A stretch of 40,567 bases of DNA, taken from a virus. Shown here piece after piece: positions 1,413 to 40,567 of this stretch (position 1 is the first letter of the stretch; every line of letters begins with the position of its first letter). Position numbers and translations under genes: made by a program. The stretch is taken from IMG/VR virus record IMGVR_UViG_3300033551_000014, positions 1-40,567 of that record, one strand, 5' to 3'. Under the pieces are notes generated by a model that saw only the letters and a list, made by a program, of their open reading frames with translations, was not told the DNA's origin and made no database searches.

Positions 1413-1615
1413 TGGACGACAACAACGTAATTCCAATGCCACTGCCTTCGCTTCGAAACATGAGCACGGAACAGCTTAAGCGGTTTGTAGGCAGTAACCC
1501 TCGTAAATGGGCGAAAGCCTTTCTGGAAATTTATGAAGCTGATGAGGATGCTGTGATGAATGAGGATTGGGTAACGGCATGGTTCACGGCGGCTATGGAG
1601 GCAGCAAAGGAATGA
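1409..1615 (+). CDS. Small hypothetical protein
   Basis: This 68-residue protein is unrecognised. The start at 1409 has a strong purine-rich ribosome site (GAGAGGA) and an ATGA overlap with the upstream gene. The C-terminal half is acidic and helical. It is coupled by ATGA to the gcrA homologue downstream, so the two proteins are probably made together. Confidence 0.7.
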   Translation: MMDDNNVIPMPLPSLRNMSTEQLKRFVGSNPRKWAKAFLEIYEADEDAVMNEDWVTAWFTAAMEAAKE

Positions 1616-2184
1616 ACCCTAAGATCGTAGACTGGGAATCTCCGGGGCGCATCGACAAGCTGAAGGAAATGTGGGCCATTGGATACTCGGCCCTGCAAAT
1701 AGCGGACGCACTCGGAATACCAGGGAAGAAGAACGCAGTCATTGGAAAGGCCAATCGTCTCAATCTCGGCGCTCATCCGAATGGACATGCTTACTACAGA
1801 GCTACCGAAAGGGCTCGCAGACTAAAGGAACGCACTGAAAGCAAAGCCAAGAGGCATAGGGAAATGGATGGGTCACTCAGCCGCTCTAAATCATCTGGAC
1901 CAGTTCGTAAGCGTAAGCCTCCAAAGCCTGATGTTGTGATTGAGAAGGTAGTGGAGCGCAGGGCGTCGATTGATGGCCCTAGCATGAAGCCAGATTATCG
2001 GTTCCAGCGCTCTAAGGCATGGGAGGCTTTGGAGGGTAGCAATCCGGTGCCGCTAGAGAAGTTGGGACGTGGGGAATGCAAATGGCCCCTGAATGGACCT
2101 AACGATACGCATCTGTTCTGCGCTCTGCCAGCATCAGATCGGTACTGTTCAACACACACATATCTATCGCATCCGAAAACGTGA
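1612..2184 (+). CDS. gcrA: GcrA-family cell-cycle transcription regulator
   Basis: This 190-residue protein carries both ends of the GcrA family. The N-terminal helix-turn-helix-like block (about residues 14-51) contains KLKEMWAIGYSALQIADALG and NAVIGKANRL, matching the family pattern of LW--G-SA-QIA--LG and NAVIGK-HRL. The C-terminal block (about 152-190) has the Cys-Trp-Pro, Phe-Cys and Tyr-Cys-His residues of the sigma70-contacting region. The middle is Lys/Arg-rich and poorly conserved. GcrA in Alphaproteobacteria binds RNA polymerase sigma70 and acts at GANTC sites methylated by CcrM. I place the start at 1612 (ATGA overlap, AAAGGA site). A phage copy could redirect host transcription or drive later phage promoters. 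No CcrM-type methyltransferase was seen in the window. Confidence 0.9.
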   Translation: MNPKIVDWESPGRIDKLKEMWAIGYSALQIADALGIPGKKNAVIGKANRLNLGAHPNGHAYYRATERARRLKERTESKAKRHREMDGSLSRSKSSGPVRKRKPPKPDVVIEKVVERRASIDGPSMKPDYRFQRSKAWEALEGSNPVPLEKLGRGECKWPLNGPNDTHLFCALPASDRYCSTHTYLSHPKT

Positions 2185-2742: not shown

Positions 2743-2752
2743 GAATGAAGGA

Positions 2753-2779
2753 GCCCCGGCGCATTTAAGCAACCGGGGC
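2753..2779 (+). terminator. GC-rich hairpin, terminator-like
   Basis: GCCCCGG at 2753-2759 pairs with CCGGGGC at 2773-2779 around a 13-base AT-rich loop containing TTTAA. The downstream run (TTGCAATTT) is only weakly U-rich, so termination may be partial. The same seven-base stem with a TTTAA-containing loop recurs at 35258-35287, in front of the other large structured region. Confidence 0.6.
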
Positions 2780-2784
2780 TTGCA

Positions 2785-3280
2785 ATTTCTACGTGACGGC
2801 GTAGAGTGGAATTCAGTTGAGCGGTTTCTCAGGCCCTCAACCATGACCAAAGCGGGATGAACGCGTTTGGTAAGACTTGAATGCCACACATGGCCCATAA
2901 GTTCAAGCGCTTACCCCACAAAGTTATCCGCCAAGGTTCGTAGAGACAGGGTAAATCCCCTGTGACGGACAGCATGGCGCTGTTCTGTTTGATGGTAGTG
3001 CCCACTGGGTCACTCTACGTCTGCCGCGCAACCAGGGGGAACTGACAAGGCGCAAACCCAGTCCGTAGGGGAGAGGGGTGTCAGCAAGGGGATCGTCCCT
3101 TGGAAGCAACTCCCTAGCGCCAAGGCATGATCGCCGGAAGCGTGATCGTAAGCTCCGAACTCCGTCTCAAGGGACAGAAAAGGACCCGATCTGGACTGCT
3201 CCTTGTGCTTTCGGGCATGGGGAAGACAGTCCTTGATCACCAGCAACCGACCCCGAACTCAGGGACAGTTAAGGTAGAAA
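2785..3280 (+). ncRNA. Large structured noncoding RNA candidate A
   Basis: No convincing gene covers this roughly 500-base stretch of an otherwise overlapping operon. Reading the + strand I find many stems: GTTGAG 2816-2821 with CTCAAC 2836-2841; ACCAAA 2846-2851 with TTTGGT 2866-2871; CTTGAA 2876-2881 with TTCAAG 2902-2907, enclosing GCCA/TGGC; CGTAGAG 2939-2945 with CTCTACG 3013-3019, closing a multibranch that holds ACAGGG/CCCTGT (2946/2958) and ACAGC/GCTGT (2969/2979); GGCGC 3049-3053 with GCGCC 3117-3121, enclosing TAGGG/CCCTA (3066/3112) and CAAGGG/CCCTTG (3085/3097); GATCGC 3129 with a partner at 3142-3147; CCCGA 3185 with TCGGG 3211. I cannot assign it to a known family. It resembles in size and ornateness the large phage RNAs GOLLD and ROOL, but that is only analogy. 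Confidence 0.65.
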
Positions 3281-3289
3281 GAGAAGAAG

Positions 3290-3508
3290 GTGGAAAAGCC
3301 AAACGTGAACGAGGAAGTGCTGAAACAGGTAGAGGCCTACGTTCAGGACAAATATGCCTTCAACGAGGCAGAATACAATCGAATGAAAAAGGCGATGAAC
3401 GAAGCTCAGTTTGCATTTCTAGCCACTCTAGCAGCCCTAGAGGCATATAATAAGCCACTCGCGGATGTGCTTAGGGCTGAAGCGCTCAGATGCGGATGGA
3501 GGATTTGA
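3290..3508 (+). CDS. Small hypothetical protein
   Basis: This 72-residue, mostly helical protein starts with GTG behind a strong GAGAAGAAGG site and directly follows structured RNA candidate A. No family recognised. Its stop overlaps the next ATG as TGATG, so it is coupled to the following gene. Confidence 0.7.
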   Translation: MEKPNVNEEVLKQVEAYVQDKYAFNEAEYNRMKKAMNEAQFAFLATLAALEAYNKPLADVLRAEALRCGWRI

Positions 3509-3810
3509 TGACCGACGAAGAGAAAATCAAGGCCTTCTCTGACGCCCTAGAGAAGGGGATGGAGCAGGTTCTTCAAGGGATGGATTCGATGATGGAATCT
3601 ATGGATGAGCTAGCAATCCAGCTTCAAATTATGACCGAACATTACGTTGATCTGGCAGGTTGCGGCGATTGTGGGCATTGGGACCCAGAAAAAGAGGAGA
3701 AGGTCATAACTGCCCGCGCTGCACTGTCCGAATACGCAGAAGGCAAGGCTGAATGGCAGGAGTATCGTCTGACCATTCCCCAGCCAAAACAAACCATCCC
3801 CCACACTTAG
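3508..3810 (+). CDS. Small hypothetical protein
   Basis: This 100-residue protein is unrecognised. The start at 3508 is set by the TGATG overlap and the ATGGAGGA site just upstream. The first half is a helical, Met-rich segment. A CGDCGHW motif near residues 51-57 looks like a partial metal-binding knuckle. Confidence 0.7.
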   Translation: MTDEEKIKAFSDALEKGMEQVLQGMDSMMESMDELAIQLQIMTEHYVDLAGCGDCGHWDPEKEEKVITARAALSEYAEGKAEWQEYRLTIPQPKQTIPHT

Positions 3811-28282: not shown

Positions 28283-28689
28283 CAATATGCCCCCAAGGGT
28301 ATCGGGAATTCGTCTGGCTGGTCATCGCGAGGAAGGATCGTCAGCTTATAATCCACCTTGCCAAATTTGGTGAACGACATAGCGCATGCGCAAAGCCGCC
28401 CCCGATCTTTTGCGTCCTCAAAATCATCGCCACCCTCATAGATGGCGATCATCTCAACAGCTTCAGGCCACTCGCCTTCTATGCGACACTGTTGCTCGAA
28501 CACGTCGAAACTCACAGAGGCGCGCTTCCATGCCTCATCCCACTCGCTTTCCTTGAACGCCTTCGGGTCTCCATCCGGCGTAAAGACAAAGAACCAATCT
28601 GGCCCGCTCTCAGCGTAAAGAGCATCCTCAACATGCTGAAACGGATTCGGATCGTTACGGAACTGGGATTCCTTCTTATCGTAACTCAT
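28282..28689 (-). CDS. Acidic hypothetical protein
   Basis: This 135-residue protein is acidic and aromatic-rich (ESGPDWFFVFTPDGDPKAF), with a C-terminal strand region. Small acidic early proteins of this type are sometimes inhibitors of host factors, but no family is recognised. It is coupled upstream by ATGA (28686) and downstream by TGATG. Confidence 0.65.
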   Translation of the reverse strand: MSYDKKESQFRNDPNPFQHVEDALYAESGPDWFFVFTPDGDPKAFKESEWDEAWKRASVSFDVFEQQCRIEGEWPEAVEMIAIYEGGDDFEDAKDRGRLCACAMSFTKFGKVDYKLTILPRDDQPDEFPIPLGAY

Positions 28690-30512: not shown

Positions 30513-30805
30513 TCTGCCTTATCCTTTGATTGGGCTTGGGATAGGGCTGCGTTAATCTTGTCTTGTGCGGCCCAAACCCACTCATCATCGGACCTACCTG
30601 AGCACAAACCCTCCATAACGTCTGCCAGTTCTTTTGCGGATTGCAAAGCCTCCACCAACTCCGCAATGGTCTTGTCGCGGGCTTCTAAAGCATCGGCTAG
30701 CTCTTGGTCGAGGTCGCAGTCAGACACATCATAAAGCCGATTGTTGCGGTTGCTGGACTCCCACCACACAATGCGCTTGTTCAGTCGTTCAATCAGACCA
30801 CTCAT
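30509..30805 (-). CDS. Small coiled-coil hypothetical protein
   Basis: This 98-residue protein is helical with DQELADALEARDKTIAELVE and ELADVMEGL segments; the pattern LIERL--R---W is common in small phage proteins sometimes called ead/Ea22-like. Role unknown. Confidence 0.6.
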   Translation of the reverse strand: MSGLIERLNKRIVWWESSNRNNRLYDVSDCDLDQELADALEARDKTIAELVEALQSAKELADVMEGLCSGRSDDEWVWAAQDKINAALSQAQSKDKAE

Positions 30806-30826
30806 CCTATTCCCCTTATCCTTGTA

Positions 30827-31015
30827 TTAGGTTTGCTTTGGAGGGGCGAAAGCCTGGCTAACGCCGTCTCTAACTGACTTTGATAGTGCGTCCTCCGCGT
30901 TTGCAAGATCGTCAAGAGCAGAGCGTGTCTGAGGATCGCCCGCTGGCAGCTTCAGGAACCGAGTACGAGCCATGTACCAATCCATAGCGGCCTCAACCAC
31001 TTTTTCATCACTCAT
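30827..31015 (-). CDS. Small hypothetical protein
   Basis: This 62-residue helical protein (VVEAAMDWYMAR; LDDLANAEDALSKSV) is coupled by ATGA at 31012 to the gene upstream. Unrecognised family typical of early phage regions. Confidence 0.6.
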   Translation of the reverse strand: MSDEKVVEAAMDWYMARTRFLKLPAGDPQTRSALDDLANAEDALSKSVRDGVSQAFAPPKQT

Positions 31016-32628: not shown

Positions 32629-33015
32629 TCAAGCACTAATTCCATATTTCTCCCACACCCTCTTTGCCTCTCCGGGCATGAGGTTTAGAACGGCTTCGAT
32701 CATTTCGGGCTTGTTCCCCGCAAGTGCCAGTTGCAGGATTTGCCTCTCCCGCTTGCCCATTGGATAGTCCATTTCAGGCGTGTGATTGGCTGGCCGTGGC
32801 TTTGCGTATCGCCCCGCGTCGTCTCTAGGCCGCTCAGGAATAGGCAGGAGGGCCAAAGCTCGGTTTATGTGGCCGGTATTGCCAGTTGAGCCTAAACCCG
32901 CTGTATGAACGCCTGTGGCCACCAAATCCGTATTCTGTCCCATCTCGATCCTCCTGATAAACTGATATTCGACCATTCCGCCTTCTTGTGGGGTGTAAGG
33001 TCTTAGTCTGGGCAT
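32629..33015 (-). CDS. Hypothetical protein with C-terminal helix-turn-helix-like region
   Basis: This 128-residue protein starts behind AGGAGG in an overlap. The last 50 residues (GKRERQILQLALAGNKPEMI, then NLMPGEAKRVW) resemble a sigma-region-4/LuxR-like helix-turn-helix. It could be a DNA-binding regulator, but this rests on pattern alone. Confidence 0.55.
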   Translation of the reverse strand: MPRLRPYTPQEGGMVEYQFIRRIEMGQNTDLVATGVHTAGLGSTGNTGHINRALALLPIPERPRDDAGRYAKPRPANHTPEMDYPMGKRERQILQLALAGNKPEMIEAVLNLMPGEAKRVWEKYGISA

Positions 33016-33578
33016 TCGTCATCCTCCTGGATATGGACTCCTAGCTTGGTTGCCAGCGTCCGGCTTATCTTCACCTGCTCGGAAATGGTCAGGAACTCCC
33101 CCGCAAAGTGCTGATCGGATCGCCTGATTGCCTCCTTGGCAGCTAGTTCCTGCTCAGGCGTTCGTGTCTTTGGATTGATCTTCTCCTCGAAAGCCTCAAC
33201 CATGCTTCTTACCCTCGCCATGGATTCAGGGGTTCTGGCAGCTTCTATGTCTGCGTCGTGGTCCCGTTGCTCTATCTGTCTTACTGCGGCATTGTGCATG
33301 CTCTTCGGGCCGTTAAGATGGCTTTGGACGGAACGAAGGTGTGACGAGAACTGCGCTATATTCGGAGCCCATGTTCTGTTGACGCCCTCTACGCGACCGA
33401 ACAGGAAATCCTCGCACGTGTCGATAATTGCCCCGGTCGTGTACCCATCGCATGCCTCCAGATACATGGCGGCTAGTTTCTGTCCCTCCTCCGCATCATT
33501 TGGATTGTTCAGCGGCAAACGACAGGAGCGGAAAAGCCTCTCGAATGCCTTCGTCACCTTGTATGCGTCGTACGCCAT
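33003..33578 (-). CDS. Hypothetical protein next to replication gene
   Basis: This 191-residue protein is helical and charged. It overlaps the replication-type gene upstream by 83 bases in another frame, with a good GGAGAG site for the start at 33578. It follows a replication-type gene as a helicase loader (lambda P-like) would, but I see no ATPase or DnaC motif. Role unassigned. Confidence 0.6.
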   Translation of the reverse strand: MAYDAYKVTKAFERLFRSCRLPLNNPNDAEEGQKLAAMYLEACDGYTTGAIIDTCEDFLFGRVEGVNRTWAPNIAQFSSHLRSVQSHLNGPKSMHNAAVRQIEQRDHDADIEAARTPESMARVRSMVEAFEEKINPKTRTPEQELAAKEAIRRSDQHFAGEFLTISEQVKISRTLATKLGVHIQEDDECPD

Positions 33579-33867
33579 TATCGCTCTCCATCTGGGCTGC
33601 TAGGTTTCCGAATATCGATCCTACTGATGCAGGTGATAGTTTCCGTGTGTCCTGCAACTCATCCTCCCAACATCCAGCCCGTAGCCATGAGGCAGGGTGT
33701 TTGATGTATTGATGTTCAGTGTTTCTGGTGTGAATGGCATAGCGCTCAACGCCTGCCATTATCTCTTGGTGTGTGGCTGACTTCAGGGCCTTTTCGTAGG
33801 CCTTCTTGGCTTCTAACTTGGCCACCCGACGCGGATAGCATTGCCAGAACGTGTCGAAGCTCATCAT
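33496..33867 (-). CDS. Replication-protein-like C-terminal domain
   Basis: This 123-residue protein matches the C-terminal part of phage O-type replication proteins: FDTFWQCYPRRVAKLEAKKA near residues 4-23, EIMAGVERYAIHT, QYIKHPASWLRAGCWEDE near 53-70. The N-terminal DNA-binding domain of a full O protein is absent, so it is a short form. Such proteins recruit the host helicase at an origin. Two ATGs (33867, 33864) overlap the previous stop. Confidence 0.65.
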   Translation of the reverse strand: MMSFDTFWQCYPRRVAKLEAKKAYEKALKSATHQEIMAGVERYAIHTRNTEHQYIKHPASWLRAGCWEDELQDTRKLSPASVGSIFGNLAAQMESDNGVRRIQGDEGIREAFPLLSFAAEQSK

Positions 33868-34487
33868 GCAACCTCCTCATGGTTCGCCCATGGCTGGCGA
33901 ACGCTCTCTTTTGCCAAAGAGATCAGAACATCACGAAAGGCTGTCGGTGTGGCGTTCGCTTCCTTTTTAGTTAGTGTCGGCTTGTTCGCTGCTTTGCCCC
34001 TTTGGTCATGAAATCCAACCTGATGGCTACCCGCAACTCTGTCCCAACGTAGTTGCGCAGGTTGATCGTAACCTCGGAAATACAACCAAGTAGCCTTTCT
34101 AGCTCGATGGCCATAGGCGGATTGCCAGACTTCCGTTACCCATCCACTCCCGCTACTAATCCACCTTCCAAACTGAGGTCTATGTAAGCCGTGCGCGGCC
34201 CATGCTCTGGATTTAGCCGGATGCTCCAGAACTCCGCCGTATTCGTTTACACTTTTCAGCGCCGACGCAAATGTGCCGCTATCATTCCCCGGTTTATTGT
34301 GGTCGCCACCCCATCTCTTGTGGTTTACCGCTGCTAGGGCACCCCAAAGCTGGCAAGGAGGATGCGCAACAACTGGGTATGGGCCATCATACTCTCTGGC
34401 ATCTCTAGAAATAGGCCAAGGGTCCACTTCTTGAAGTCCGAAGTAGCAACCACCTTCCTGCACAAACAAAGCAGCAACTCTGTACAA
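33864..34487 (-). CDS. Cytosine-methyltransferase-like protein with PC motif
   Basis: This 207-residue protein contains PVVAHPPCQLWGALA near residues 38-52, resembling the catalytic Pro-Cys of DNA cytosine C5 methyltransferases, followed by GGVLEHPAKSRAW near 82-94 (compare the ENV-type motif position) and YGHRARKATWLYFRG near 123-137. It lacks the full set of C5 methylase motifs and a clear SAM loop, so it is a minimal or divergent relative known from many alphaproteobacterial phages. It starts with TTG behind AGGAGAG, just after structured RNA candidate B. It could modify phage DNA against restriction. Confidence 0.65.
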   Translation of the reverse strand: MYRVAALFVQEGGCYFGLQEVDPWPISRDAREYDGPYPVVAHPPCQLWGALAAVNHKRWGGDHNKPGNDSGTFASALKSVNEYGGVLEHPAKSRAWAAHGLHRPQFGRWISSGSGWVTEVWQSAYGHRARKATWLYFRGYDQPAQLRWDRVAGSHQVGFHDQRGKAANKPTLTKKEANATPTAFRDVLISLAKESVRQPWANHEEVA

Positions 34488-34494
34488 TCTTCTC

Positions 34495-35025
34495 TCCTAA
34501 TTCAGCTTACACCTGTCACAGAAGACGTAGGGTGAGGTATCCCTCAGGCTTTACATCTCCGGTATTCTCTGGAGGCTAGTTCAACACAACCGACACTATC
34601 GACACTGTTTGCACTCCGGAAGCTCCCGGGTTCGCTATAGAGGGAGTCACCCCCTGGTACGCGCTTGGCTTATGGCCTAGCACCTCACCACTTTCGTCGT
34701 ATCGTAGGGACCGCTGCCTGCTAAATCCCTATGGCCGTCTTTTGAGCGGGTTCACGTCCCCCGTCTGCCAGCCGGTTATGTTGTAGGCACTGCACGTCAC
34801 TGGTAAGTCTGTGTGGTGTCTCTGGACAAGCCTCAACCATAGGTTCACAGCTTCTAAGCGTGACCTTGGGCAGAACTAGCGATATGTTGGGACTTGGCTG
34901 TTGCAACTAACTAAGGGTTGCGATATTTATAGCCTTATCCGAAACGCGCTGGACCCGCTTTCGGTCTATCGAGGGAGACTTGAGGCCTCCTTAGATAAGC
35001 ACAGTTTTAGACGAGAATTCTATCC
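34495..35025 (-). ncRNA. Large structured noncoding RNA candidate B
   Basis: About 540 bases separate two leftward genes in an operon that otherwise overlaps. Complementary stems (given as + coordinates) include GACGAG 35010-35015 with CTCGTC 35025-35030; GGCT 34896-34899 with AGCC 34931-34934 enclosing GCAAC 34903 and GTTGC 34917; AAGC 34828 with GCTT 34850 enclosing AACC/GGTT; TAGGGA 34705-34710 with TCCCTA 34726-34731; CGGG/CCCG (34747/34760); CTCCC 34623 with GGGAG 34642; CTCC/GGAG (34557/34571); TGAGG 34533 with CCTCA 34542. No long codon-like frame with a ribosome site is present. On the minus strand it shares short blocks with candidate A. No known family recognised. Confidence 0.6.
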
Positions 35026-35028
35026 TCG

Positions 35029-35238
35029 TCAACGCTTCGAGGCTCTTGGGCGAAACCGCTTGGGAGCCTCATGCTTTTCCAAAGCCGTCTTCACTTCGAC
35101 AGCCGGAAAATGCACGGCCTCAATCGTCCAAAACGAACGACCCATGTATACGCGATTTCCAACCAATGCGGTCTTATCGGAAACCATCACGGTCTGCGTG
35201 TTGTCGTCTTTGCGAACTCGACATTCATGCTGGTACAT
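35029..35238 (-). CDS. Small hypothetical protein
   Basis: This 69-residue protein starts at 35238 with AAGGAG six bases in front; longer in-frame starts would run through the hairpin at 35258-35287. The N-terminal part is strand-rich (CRVRKDDNTQTVMVSDKTAL), the tail very basic (PKRFRPRASKR). It may bind nucleic acid. It is directly upstream of structured RNA B. Confidence 0.62.
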   Translation of the reverse strand: MYQHECRVRKDDNTQTVMVSDKTALVGNRVYMGRSFWTIEAVHFPAVEVKTALEKHEAPKRFRPRASKR

Positions 35239-35257
35239 ATTCATCTCCTTTTTCATC

Positions 35258-35287
35258 GCCCCGGTTGGTTTAAACGCCTTCCGGGGC
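35258..35287. terminator. GC-rich hairpin upstream of the 35238 start
   Basis: GCCCCGG at 35258-35264 pairs with CCGGGGC at 35281-35287 around a loop with TTTAA. On the minus strand it is followed not by a U-run but by the ribosome site of the next gene, so there it may act as a processing or attenuating stem. On the + strand TTTCCTTT follows. It matches the hairpin at 2753-2779. Confidence 0.45.
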
Positions 35288-35296
35288 TTTCCTTTC

Positions 35297-35488
35297 CTAA
35301 GCCTTTGGAGGAAGAAAGTGCCTCTTTGCATTTTCTGGTAAAGCATCAACCATCTGTTCTGCGGCTAGTGGGGCGACAGACATTGCTCGACAGAGTGACG
35401 GAATACAAAGAGCCAGTTCGTGGGTCGTTATATCTTCCTTCGGTTGCCAGACGTACTTTAGTTTGAAGATCGACAAAACGTCGCTCAT
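35297..35488 (-). CDS. Small hypothetical protein
   Basis: This 63-residue protein is unrecognised (MSDVLSIFKLKYVWQPKED at the start). It ends ten bases before the GC hairpin and begins after the small structured element at 35529-35627. Confidence 0.6.
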   Translation of the reverse strand: MSDVLSIFKLKYVWQPKEDITTHELALCIPSLCRAMSVAPLAAEQMVDALPENAKRHFLPPKA

Positions 35489-35528
35489 CCTAATTTCCTT
35501 TTCATGAGTTACGTGGTAGGGTGGAGAT

Positions 35529-35627
35529 GTGAGGCGTCGTCTTTGACGTTATGGGTACTAGTCCGGTGCGTTCCCTAGTTTGCGGTTCGAAACGTATTTC
35601 TAGCGCAGTAAGCCGGTCACGCCTCAC
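35529..35627 (-). ncRNA. Small structured RNA candidate C
   Basis: A perfect 9-bp inverted repeat (GTGAGGCGT at 35529-35537, ACGCCTCAC at 35619-35627) closes a 99-base element in the gap 35489-35675. Inside are a CGTC/GACG hairpin, paired CCGG blocks and three CTAG/CTAGT words that may form further pairs. No gene fits. It could be a regulatory leader, a processed small RNA or a protein-binding site. Orientation is assumed from the operon. Confidence 0.5.
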
Positions 35628-35675
35628 TCTCCCCCTCCCAAGCCAATTATTACCTATTAATAGGGGTAGTGGAGA

Positions 35676-36038
35676 CTAGAGGGGACGGAAGAACGGCCAG
35701 ACCTCAACCTTAAGCCCTTTGCACTCTCCGTACTGAAGAGTTATCTTCCGGCATAGGTGGTCATCCTCCACGATCTTATGGCTTACGAGGGCGTCAATCG
35801 CAGCCTTCGCTCTCCCGTCCAAATCTGACCGTACACGGACTTTCTTGGGGTTGATGGTGATACTGACCTCAAACTCCCCTTTCACCTCTCCATGGCCGTT
35901 GTAATCCCACCCAGCGGCATTCTGCCATTGCTTGTATCTGTCGGTTCGAACTCTCCCCTTTCCTGGTACATTGGCGTAGAGAGAATTAACCCCGGGGGGC
36001 ACATGCTCGCTTTCGATGGTGATGGCGGCCTTAGGCAT
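35676..36038 (-). CDS. rusA: RusA family Holliday junction resolvase
   Basis: This 120-residue protein has the RusA length and active-site layout: RSDLDGRAKAAIDAL with Asp72 and Asp74, then VEDDHL with Asp92/93, matching the three catalytic aspartates of RusA (Asp70, Asp72, Asp91 in Escherichia coli). The start at 36038 overlaps the upstream stop. RusA cuts four-way junctions, resolving recombination intermediates or branched concatemers before packaging. Confidence 0.9.
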   Translation of the reverse strand: MPKAAITIESEHVPPGVNSLYANVPGKGRVRTDRYKQWQNAAGWDYNGHGEVKGEFEVSITINPKKVRVRSDLDGRAKAAIDALVSHKIVEDDHLCRKITLQYGECKGLKVEVWPFFRPL

Positions 36039-36237
36039 TCTTGTTCGCTTCCTTGGCCGCAGCTTCGGTTTCAATTTCACGGTCGTAGGCTCGACGGAAA
36101 CGTTCAAACCAGAACTCAGCGGTTTCACGCTTAATACTTACTTCTCGAAACGCCTCGATTAGATCAGACTGAACCTTCTTCCGCCACGTGTATGCGGCAT
36201 TAGCGATTTCCTGCTCTTCGGTTGGTTGCTCGCTCAT
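36031..36237 (-). CDS. Small helical protein
   Basis: This 68-residue protein starts at 36237 behind AAGGTG, in an overlap. It is strongly helical and charged (EAFREVSIKRETAEFWFERF). It overlaps the rusA start. Unrecognised. Confidence 0.62.
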   Translation of the reverse strand: MSEQPTEEQEIANAAYTWRKKVQSDLIEAFREVSIKRETAEFWFERFRRAYDREIETEAAAKEANKNA

Positions 36238-37239: not shown

Positions 37240-37255
37240 GTCTACCTCCTTTTTT

Positions 37256-37345
37256 GGTGCACAATTCATCTCACATACGCTTTTTCGCGTCAACGATTAT
37301 TTTTGGTTGACAGCCGATTTTAGATATGGCGATATAGGGACACAA
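37256..37345. promoter_or_regulatory. Divergent early promoters with shared inverted repeat
   Basis: GTCAAC at 37289-37294 and GTTGAC at 37306-37311 form a perfect inverted repeat with an 11-base AT-rich spacer. Each arm supplies a -35 box: rightward TTGACA at 37307-37312 with GATATA about 18 bases on (37331-37336), and leftward TTGACG on the minus strand with a weak ATGAAT-like -10 near 37267-37272. Back-to-back promoters from one palindrome give a natural operator for the Cro-like protein at 36860. The -10 boxes are poor matches. Confidence 0.6.
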
Positions 37346-37358
37346 ACCGAGGTATGAC

Positions 37359-38521: not shown

Positions 38522-38553
38522 GGCCCGGAGAGCGTTACGGCTCAATCCGGACC
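38522..38553 (+). terminator. Long hairpin after the first rightward gene block
   Basis: GG-CCGGA at 38522-38529 pairs with TCCGG-CC at 38546-38553 (one C-A mismatch), and GAGC pairs with GCTC inside, closing a six-base loop GTTACG. No U-run follows, so it may be an attenuator or processing site rather than a classical terminator. The gap 38554-38648 after it contains a TACAAT near 38623 that could be a -10 box for the next gene. Confidence 0.45.
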
Positions 38554-38648
38554 TAAGTAGCGGCAGGGGAGGATGAGGGATGCCGCAATCATCTTCTATC
38601 CCACTTCCCCAGCCATATACAATACCCAACCAATGAGGATGATTAGAG

Positions 38649-39019: not shown

Positions 39020-39521
39020 GTACATCGCATTGGACGCCGATGAGGTTGCCCGTCAGGTCGAACGCCTCTTCACCGAATATCATGATGAAGTGGCTGATGA
39101 CGAAGCCCTGCGTATGGACCTCCTTGATGGCGAAACCGGCTTCTTCGAGATCATAGACAAGGTGCTTGATCATCGTCAGGAGGCGCTAGGAATGGCGTCT
39201 ATGACCAAGGAGCGGGCTACCGGCATGAAGCTACGCATAGACCGCTACGAGAGCCGTGCAGAGGCTATGACAAAGCTGATCATGAACCTGATGGAAGTTG
39301 CGGGCTTCGAGCGCGTAGAGCGTCCTGAAGCCACAATCTCTCGGACCAAGGGGCGCGATAGTGTGGAGATTACAGATTTGGAGGCAATTCCTCAGGGATA
39401 TGCCAAATTCGAGAAGAAGCCAGACAAGACAGCGATCAAAGCGGCTATCGATGCTGGGGCTGATATTCCTGGGGCTTCCGTCAAGAAGGGCGAACCTTCA
39501 ATCGTGGTGCGAACAAAATGA
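39009..39521 (+). CDS. Gp157 family protein
   Basis: This 170-residue protein matches the siphovirus Gp157 family: a helical coiled first half ending in IDRYESRAEAMTKLI, then the beta-rich end with ERPEATISRTKG, then KKPDKTAIKAAIDAGADIPG, the K-DK-AIKEALK-G--V-G pattern typical of the family. First linked to phage resistance in Streptococcus phage; commonly located with recombination genes. Its exact activity is not established. Confidence 0.85.
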   Translation: MSNKYIALDADEVARQVERLFTEYHDEVADDEALRMDLLDGETGFFEIIDKVLDHRQEALGMASMTKERATGMKLRIDRYESRAEAMTKLIMNLMEVAGFERVERPEATISRTKGRDSVEITDLEAIPQGYAKFEKKPDKTAIKAAIDAGADIPGASVKKGEPSIVVRTK

Positions 39522-39988
39522 TGCCAATTTCTGACTTTGTTCGGTTCATGAGGCATGTTTCAATTGGATCGGAGATTGGGGCCTGTTGGATTTGGATGGG
39601 CAACAAGCCGGACGGAAGATATGGCCATTTCTCCGTAAATGGTAAAACCGTAAAAGCTCACCGTTGGTTTTATGAATTCATTCATGAGCCAATTCCTGAA
39701 GAATTATTGGTACGGCACAAATGCGATAATCCGCAGTGCGTTAATCCAGACCACTTAGAAACTGGAACGGCATCTCAGAATACGCAGGACATGCACAAAC
39801 GAGGACGCGGAGCTGATCGTCGGGGAATTAAGCACCCACTCGTAAAGCTGACTGAGGCAGATGTTAGGGAAATTCGCAGGCTAAAGGCTTGTGGCCACAC
39901 CGAAACCTTTCTGTCGATGCGGTATGGAGTTGGTCGCTCACAAATCGGCAAGATCGTACACCGCATAAATTGGAAGCACATTGAATGA
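39518..39988 (+). CDS. HNH homing-type endonuclease
   Basis: This 156-residue protein carries an HNH_3-type nuclease: AHRWFYEFIHEPIPEELLVR at about 49-68, then HKCDNPQCVNPDHLETGT near 69-86 with the conserved His, Cys and Asn. The C-terminal 45 residues (LTEADVREIRRLKACGHTET, then FLSMRYGVGRSQIGKIV) form a helix-turn-helix of the kind that gives free-standing HNH enzymes their target choice. It has been inserted precisely with ATGA overlaps on both sides. Confidence 0.88.
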   Translation: MMPISDFVRFMRHVSIGSEIGACWIWMGNKPDGRYGHFSVNGKTVKAHRWFYEFIHEPIPEELLVRHKCDNPQCVNPDHLETGTASQNTQDMHKRGRGADRRGIKHPLVKLTEADVREIRRLKACGHTETFLSMRYGVGRSQIGKIVHRINWKHIE

Positions 39989-40567
39989 GCCAGCTAGACC
40001 CACGAATTGAGGCTATTCGAGCCAAATACGATCTGGATGCTTCCGATTTCTGGGAACTACCCCAGAAGCGAGGGACATGGATCGCTAAGCATTCGGCTTT
40101 GGAGGTCGTCGCCGTCAAAGCCAACATCGTTTGGTCCATGCCCCAGATCATTGAGGCAGCGAGCATCGACGGAATTGCCGCCATGGTGGTTATGGGAACG
40201 ATGGGGACGCGCTCTGAATGGGCGACGGGCGAGGCAGGGCCAAAGAACAACAAGAACGCCTACCCTTGGGCAATGGCTGAGAAGCGCGCCAAGGATCGTG
40301 TCGTTCTAAAGCTCAGCGGCATTGCAGGGCTTGTCTATTCCGAGGATGAGGCAGACGACTTCAAGCAGCCTGCTGACGCCCCTCCCAAGCCTTCTGCAAG
40401 GCCTGTGGACCCGACAAAAGTATTCAATGAGCATCTAACCAACATCAACACCGCAAAGACGCCTGATGACCTCAAGGCCGTGTTTGCAGTTATCTGGAAG
40501 TCGGACCTGCGCCAGACAGACAAACTCGAACTGCGAGAGGCGTATGAAGCCAAGAAGGCGGACTTAG
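39985..40567 (+). CDS. Putative ssDNA/recombination-associated protein (continues at base 1)
   Basis: The gene starts in an ATGA overlap and continues across the window join to 171, giving 208 residues. The centre (AYPWAMAEKRAKDRVVLKLSG, here about residues 93-112, then GLVYSEDEADDF) resembles the conserved part of phage single-strand annealing or ERF-like proteins, in which a KRA--R---- helix precedes an acidic linker. A Pro-rich linker near residues 127-142 leads to a helical C-terminal domain. Its neighbours Gp157, NinB and a YbcO nuclease support a recombination role. Confidence 0.65.
   Translation, partial: MSQLDPRIEAIRAKYDLDASDFWELPQKRGTWIAKHSALEVVAVKANIVWSMPQIIEAASIDGIAAMVVMGTMGTRSEWATGEAGPKNNKNAYPWAMAEKRAKDRVVLKLSGIAGLVYSEDEADDFKQPADAPPKPSARPVDPTKVFNEHLTNINTAKTPDDLKAVFAVIWKSDLRQTDKLELREAYEAKKADL
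40441..40567. repeat. Terminal overlap of a circular assembly (copy 2)
   Basis: Exact second copy of bases 1-127. It lies inside the 3' half of the gene that begins at 39985. Confidence 0.95.

Follow-up and report, generated by a model that had tools for sequence, protein, structure and literature searches.

We analysed IMG/VR virus record IMGVR_UViG_3300033551_000014, positions 1 to 40,567, and refer to this whole stretch of 40,567 nucleotides as the window. The window begins and ends with the same 128 bases (1-128 = 40440-40567), a direct terminal repeat that makes a complete genome of ~40.4 kb, either circular or terminally redundant, probable. Its portal gene is P22-like; among genome contigs, a related portal was matched once, in a distant prophage of an Emcibacteraceae MAG. 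Leftward early genes run from ~37240 down to 27000 and rightward early genes from 37359, over the record end, to ~5300, with late genes filling the remainder between. The divergent promoter region is presumed to be 37240-37358. A GcrA-like gene (PF07750) at 1612-2184 suggests an alphaproteobacterial host.

The stretch studied here, B, is in the leftward operon, whose presumed promoter is ~2.2 kb away. Its 541 bases exactly fill the space from the stop codon of the gene at 35029-35238 to the ribosome-binding site of the gene at 33864-34487. B was found in only one other viral contig, IMGVR_UViG_3300023099_000016 (G001, locus L029). Two further related phages, G002 and G003, are taken up below. 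The locus is arranged as follows.

35029 to 35238, minus strand: upstream gene, 69 aa, function unassigned; its protein is 96% identical in G001
34488 to 35028, minus strand: candidate RNA B in the leftward operon, gene-free by ORF and hexamer coding analysis
34555 to 35028, minus strand: core of B, conserved in G001 (L029), where 3 of its 474 bases are substituted
34485 to 34554, minus strand: 3' junction where similarity to G001 falls, with the ribosome-binding site and TTG start retained
33864 to 34487, minus strand: downstream gene, 207 aa, TTG start, phrog_12600 (methyltransferase-like); an unrelated gene is found instead in G001
33003 to 33578, minus strand: operon gene further downstream, 191 aa, possibly for replication, phrog_18745; the anchor that places the G002 RNA at the locus of B

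The initial annotation had described a gene-free stretch of ~540 bases between two leftward genes, and this description is borne out. Apart from one 61-aa ORF with a TTG start, no ORF of at least 50 aa lies wholly within B. No coding signal was detected in B, the hexamer scores ranging from -0.21 to -0.94 over the six frames compared with +0.36 for genes, confirming that B is without a credible gene. The annotation also regarded B as unusually rich in stems, and here the computation disagrees. B folds with a minimum free energy of -175.4 compared with -169.6 ± 6.7 for shuffled sequences (z -0.87), and 20 of 100 shuffles equal it. The opposite strand gives a folding z of -1.14, and control windows from the same genome have a mean of 0.01 ± 1.1. 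The folding energy of B is thus ordinary and, on energy alone, its stems are what any like sequence gives. In the same region, a smaller gene-free stretch (35489-35675, minus strand) has a closing stem GUGAGGCGU/ACGCCUCAC and a folding z of -1.82; no homologue of it was found in the related contigs.

Compared with G001, the core of B has changed less than the genes around it. The adjoining 69-aa gene differs by 5 changes in 210 bases (Fisher p 0.06 against the B core) and the replication gene by 31 changes in 576 bases (Fisher p 5e-6). The gene after B in G001 encodes 114 aa and is unrelated to the methyltransferase-like gene of the window; B is therefore conserved irrespective of which gene comes next. 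Part of this conservation could come from a block recently exchanged as a whole between the window phage and G001. At the 3' junction, 22 of 69 bases differ between the two phages.

A second untranslated region, in the other early operon, was also part of the initial annotation and is present. This region, A, lies ~6 kb from the presumed rightward promoter and is more stable than B (folding z -2.54). The two regions contain the following parts, the long-range helices being taken from predicted folds.

2743 to 3289, plus strand: candidate RNA A, gene-free, 547 bases, rightward operon; very probably a distant homologue of B
2798 to 2809, plus strand: longest long-range helix of A, 5' arm GGCGUAGAGUGG (predicted fold)
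2846 to 2871, plus strand: motif-1 hairpin of A, ACCAAAGCG-GGAUGAA-CGC-g-UUUGGU
3010 to 3021, plus strand: longest long-range helix of A, 3' arm UCACUCUACGUC (predicted fold)
35010 to 35030, minus strand: 5' hairpin of B, GACGAG..CUCGUC, which starts within the stop codon of the upstream gene and is identical in G001
34939 to 34964, minus strand: motif-1 hairpin of B, CCGAAAGCG-GGUCCAG-CGC-g-UUUCGG, present in A too without gaps and with the bulged G retained
34771 to 34783, minus strand: long-range helix of B, 13 pairs, 5' arm CAACAUAACCGGC, closing a domain of ~200 nt (predicted fold)
34582 to 34594, minus strand: 3' arm of the same 13-pair helix, GUCGGUUGUGUUG (predicted fold)
34533 to 34546, minus strand: 3' hairpin of B, UGAGG-GAUA-CCUCA, bordering the conserved core (by eye)

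The 13-pair helix of B was matched in quality by 3 of 60 shuffles. In the place of the 3' hairpin G001 has another sequence that also forms a hairpin, AGGU-UAUAU-ACCU, again judged by eye.

Several comparisons indicate that A and B are very probably homologous. In the sense of transcription they align over their full length (Smith-Waterman score 463; shuffles 357 ± 22), and their similarity follows the transcribed strand of each operon, not the orientation of the genome. When B was slid over 1578 windows of its own genome, on both strands, A ranked first. A is the top window for B at two gap-permissive settings and fails at the strictest of three. Among 2128 background windows from other phage loci of like base composition, 0-1 reach the A-B score at the two gap-permissive settings and 12-19 at the strictest. 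A home-made simultaneous fold-and-align of A and B gave a weak signal (z 1.9; 1 of 60 shuffles). With only B (34841-34966) as its source, a covariance model had one non-self match in 319 kb, the A hairpin at 2846-2871, with 12.2 bits and an E-value of 0.52, or 0.0013 over the 801 bases around A; these E-values are optimistic, as the sub-region of B was picked after the motif had been seen by eye. The two motif-1 hairpins are each 26 nt and align without gaps, with all nine pairs and the bulged G retained. Between them, two pairs have changed on both sides (C-G to A-U and G-C to C-G); with two sequences only, a shuffle test on these paired changes is without power.

The related phages G002 and G003 carry a second type of RNA candidate. 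In the leftward operon of G002, the same replication genes are preceded by ~850 gene-free bases (L046:1-846). G003 has ~530 gene-free bases in its rightward operon, after the counterpart of the window gene at 2410-2742. Neither RNA has significant resemblance to B. They are plainly related to each other (type 2; alignment z 15) despite belonging to different operons of different phages, so that an interchangeable second type is found at both loci. Their folding z values are -1.94 for G002 and -1.95 for G003, and both end in an intrinsic terminator. In the type 2 alignment, 12 of the 37 predicted pairs have changed on both sides. Covariance had been suggested as a check on B: compensatory changes are seen in type 2, while for B itself covariation is confined to one hairpin in two sequences. 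Kinship between the A/B sequences (type 1) and type 2 through the 11-mer CCAAGGTCACG, shared by B and the G003 RNA, was considered and rejected, as structural alignment gave z 0.3-0.5 and model R2 misses the window.

A large gene-free stretch that is an RNA candidate thus occurs at all five readable loci in four phages. The genes downstream of it differ among B and A of the window, G001, G002, and G003. The GcrA genes near the A locus are 88% identical between the window and G003 though the RNA type differs. As the RNA type switches while the neighbours stay, the RNAs behave as cassettes. The proposal of a functional structured RNA in each early operon gains from the conservation, the likeness of A and B and the counterparts in relatives, and loses from the folding energy of B. 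Random-like folding energy with no conservation among relatives had been named as the outcome that would speak against it; the folding energy of B is indeed random-like, but B is clearly conserved.

We also searched for relatives and known families. There was no Rfam match in the window at gathering and none in 33400-36200 at E-values up to 5, which includes group I and group II introns; the genes flanking B are complete. The G002 and G003 counterparts gave only sub-threshold chance matches to Rfam. Searches by blastn of the phage (50,697 records) and plasmid collections returned no match, and the closest kin of the window may be outside this set. No match was accepted among 385 alphaproteobacterial genomes, where one to model R2 (E 0.0096) was taken as chance. 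Scans of the viral contigs with the replication gene (A2) and GcrA (A8) returned the known relatives only, and A2 had no match in the genome contigs. Beyond G001, the motif-1 scan of the viral contigs hit only another phage's portal gene, in two copies of that phage, by chance. Exact matches to the type 2 hairpins beyond G002 and G003 fell in coding DNA or lacked profile support. Type 1 and type 2 would be new classes of a known kind, the large phage RNAs, and the arrangement of one RNA per operon with exchangeable types is, as far as could be checked, undescribed.

B probably functions as an RNA, and one of a kind not described before. Our preferred reading, with a probability of about 0.4, is that B is a noncoding structured RNA of ~500-540 nt within the leftward early transcript, with A as its diverged paralogue, and acts on its own operon. 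The RNA would fold co-transcriptionally and act on the operon that carries it, one copy per operon. It might, for example, keep RNA polymerase elongating through antitermination or anti-pausing, as putL and putR do in HK022. It could also set the ending or processing of the long transcript. No clear intrinsic terminator was found downstream of B on its strand, with one weak candidate at 28605, so such a target, if any, would be Rho-dependent termination or pausing. The RNA types would be exchanged among phages as cassettes. A narrower version is doubtful: that alphaproteobacterial phages carry matched type-specific cassettes, one ~540-nt RNA per early operon, for RNA-only control of transcription or of the operon. 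For this idea, type 1 is present at both loci of the window phage, and type 2 in G002 and G003 was read at one locus each.

An RNA within an operon has precedent. The EAR element of the Bacillus eps operons is a structured RNA of ~120 nt inside a long operon and promotes antitermination. Compared by description only, EAR resembles B in being within the operon, not at its start, and differs in its length and hosts. HK022 carries two similar cis-acting RNAs, putL and putR, one per early operon, which allow RNA polymerase to read through terminators for 10 kb or more (PMC9378689). The put RNAs are ~70 nt with two stem-loops and lie at the start of the early promoter or up to ~270 nt away (PMC9378689). 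In the arrangement of loci, which is what we compare here and not sequence, A and B are like put in that each early operon has one of two similar copies, oriented in sense and with no fixed downstream gene. They differ from put in being ~540 nt (seven times longer) and mid-operon, ~2.2 and ~6 kb from the promoters. Antitermination of the put type works through the zinc-binding domain of the RNA polymerase beta' subunit. Here large phage RNAs occur as pairs, with each early operon holding one member, and close relatives carry either of two sequence types at these loci. From this arrangement a single phage is expected to have RNAs of the same type, one in each operon, and involvement in the expression of early genes is suggested.

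The chief rival, possible but on the whole unlikely, is a stand-alone large RNA of the GOLLD/ROOL kind that would be cut or terminated from the operon transcript, build up during infection and act in trans as an RNA particle or RNP. RNAs of that kind are abundant and stable and form homo-oligomers. GOLLD and ROOL are structured RNAs of about 600 to over 800 nt found in phages, with no known protein partner or role (PMC12286853). A and B are also large, predicted to be structured and phage-borne, and a size of 500-650 nt together with long-range helices resembles this kind. The intrinsic terminator at the type 2 ends would suit a separate RNA as well, whereas type 1 is without its own terminator. 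Abundant large phage RNAs without an assigned role exist (GOLLD and ROOL, PMC12286853; ICP1, PMC7567579); in ICP1, a noncoding RNA of ~800 nt is the most abundant phage transcript (PMC7567579). B is like the ICP1 RNA in being a large gene-free phage stretch between genes. However, abundance has been shown for ICP1, while B is a candidate predicted from sequence and has no homologue in the 50,697 phage records. In contrast to GOLLD and ROOL, A and B have no Rfam match (E up to 5), are between early genes and are two diverged copies; one copy per operon suits a role in cis better. GOLLD and ROOL are also often near tRNA genes, yet no tRNA genes were found in the window and none adjoins the RNAs of the relatives, where there is one tRNA-Gln, in G002, ~8 kb off.

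That B is a long leader controlling the translation or stability of the next gene, riboswitch-like or autoregulatory, is improbable. A ribosome-binding site directly follows the RNA, TTG or GTG starts are used in the genes after A, B, and the B of G001, and the start site is retained in G001 where the remaining 3' edge differs. However, the gene that would be controlled varies, being methyltransferase-like in the window and, in G001, an unrelated one of 114 aa, with yet others after A and in G002 and G003, which makes a gene-specific leader unlikely.

Very improbable is the absence of any selected function, with B as a decayed gene or spacer that is nearly identical in G001 through a recent common origin of the block. 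The shuffle-like folding energy of B, its single close relative and the p of only 0.06 against the adjoining gene are consistent with this. Against it are the independent counterpart A in the same genome, the counterparts with covariation in G002 and G003, and the retention of 540 untranslated bases twice in a compact 40-kb genome.

A DNA element, such as a replication origin or a packaging or recombination site, would fit the position of B upstream of a replication-initiation-like gene (33496-33867) and the recombination suggested by cassette exchange, but it is the least probable reading given that 34400-35300 has no direct or inverted repeats of at least 12 bases, no repeat families and no sign of an iteron-type origin, that A and B agree in the sense of transcription and not in genome orientation, and that pairs change in a compensatory way in type 2.

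Other features of the early operons were noted. The GcrA-like genes (window 1612-2184; L064:13214-13789) are near-identical over the first ~140 residues and then diverge sharply, at what is likely a recombination junction. The G003 counterpart of the window gene at 2410-2742 is split over two frames near its end (L064 ~12861; G003 ~31861), which may reflect a frameshift, an assembly error or recoding. The rightward operon also contains two genes for HNH endonucleases (39518-39988 and 996-1412), which are possible agents of cassette exchange. The ends of several unrelated early genes (window 3508-3810; G003 30760-30950) have a common tail, IPQPKQTxPHT, suggesting a repeated DNA element that overlaps gene ends. 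A G+C-rich hairpin, with AA kept before its 3' arm, is found three times in the early operons (2752-2782, plus strand; 35258-35290, minus strand; 38530-38556, plus strand). It is terminator-like on the opposite strand and is perhaps a guard against antisense transcription.
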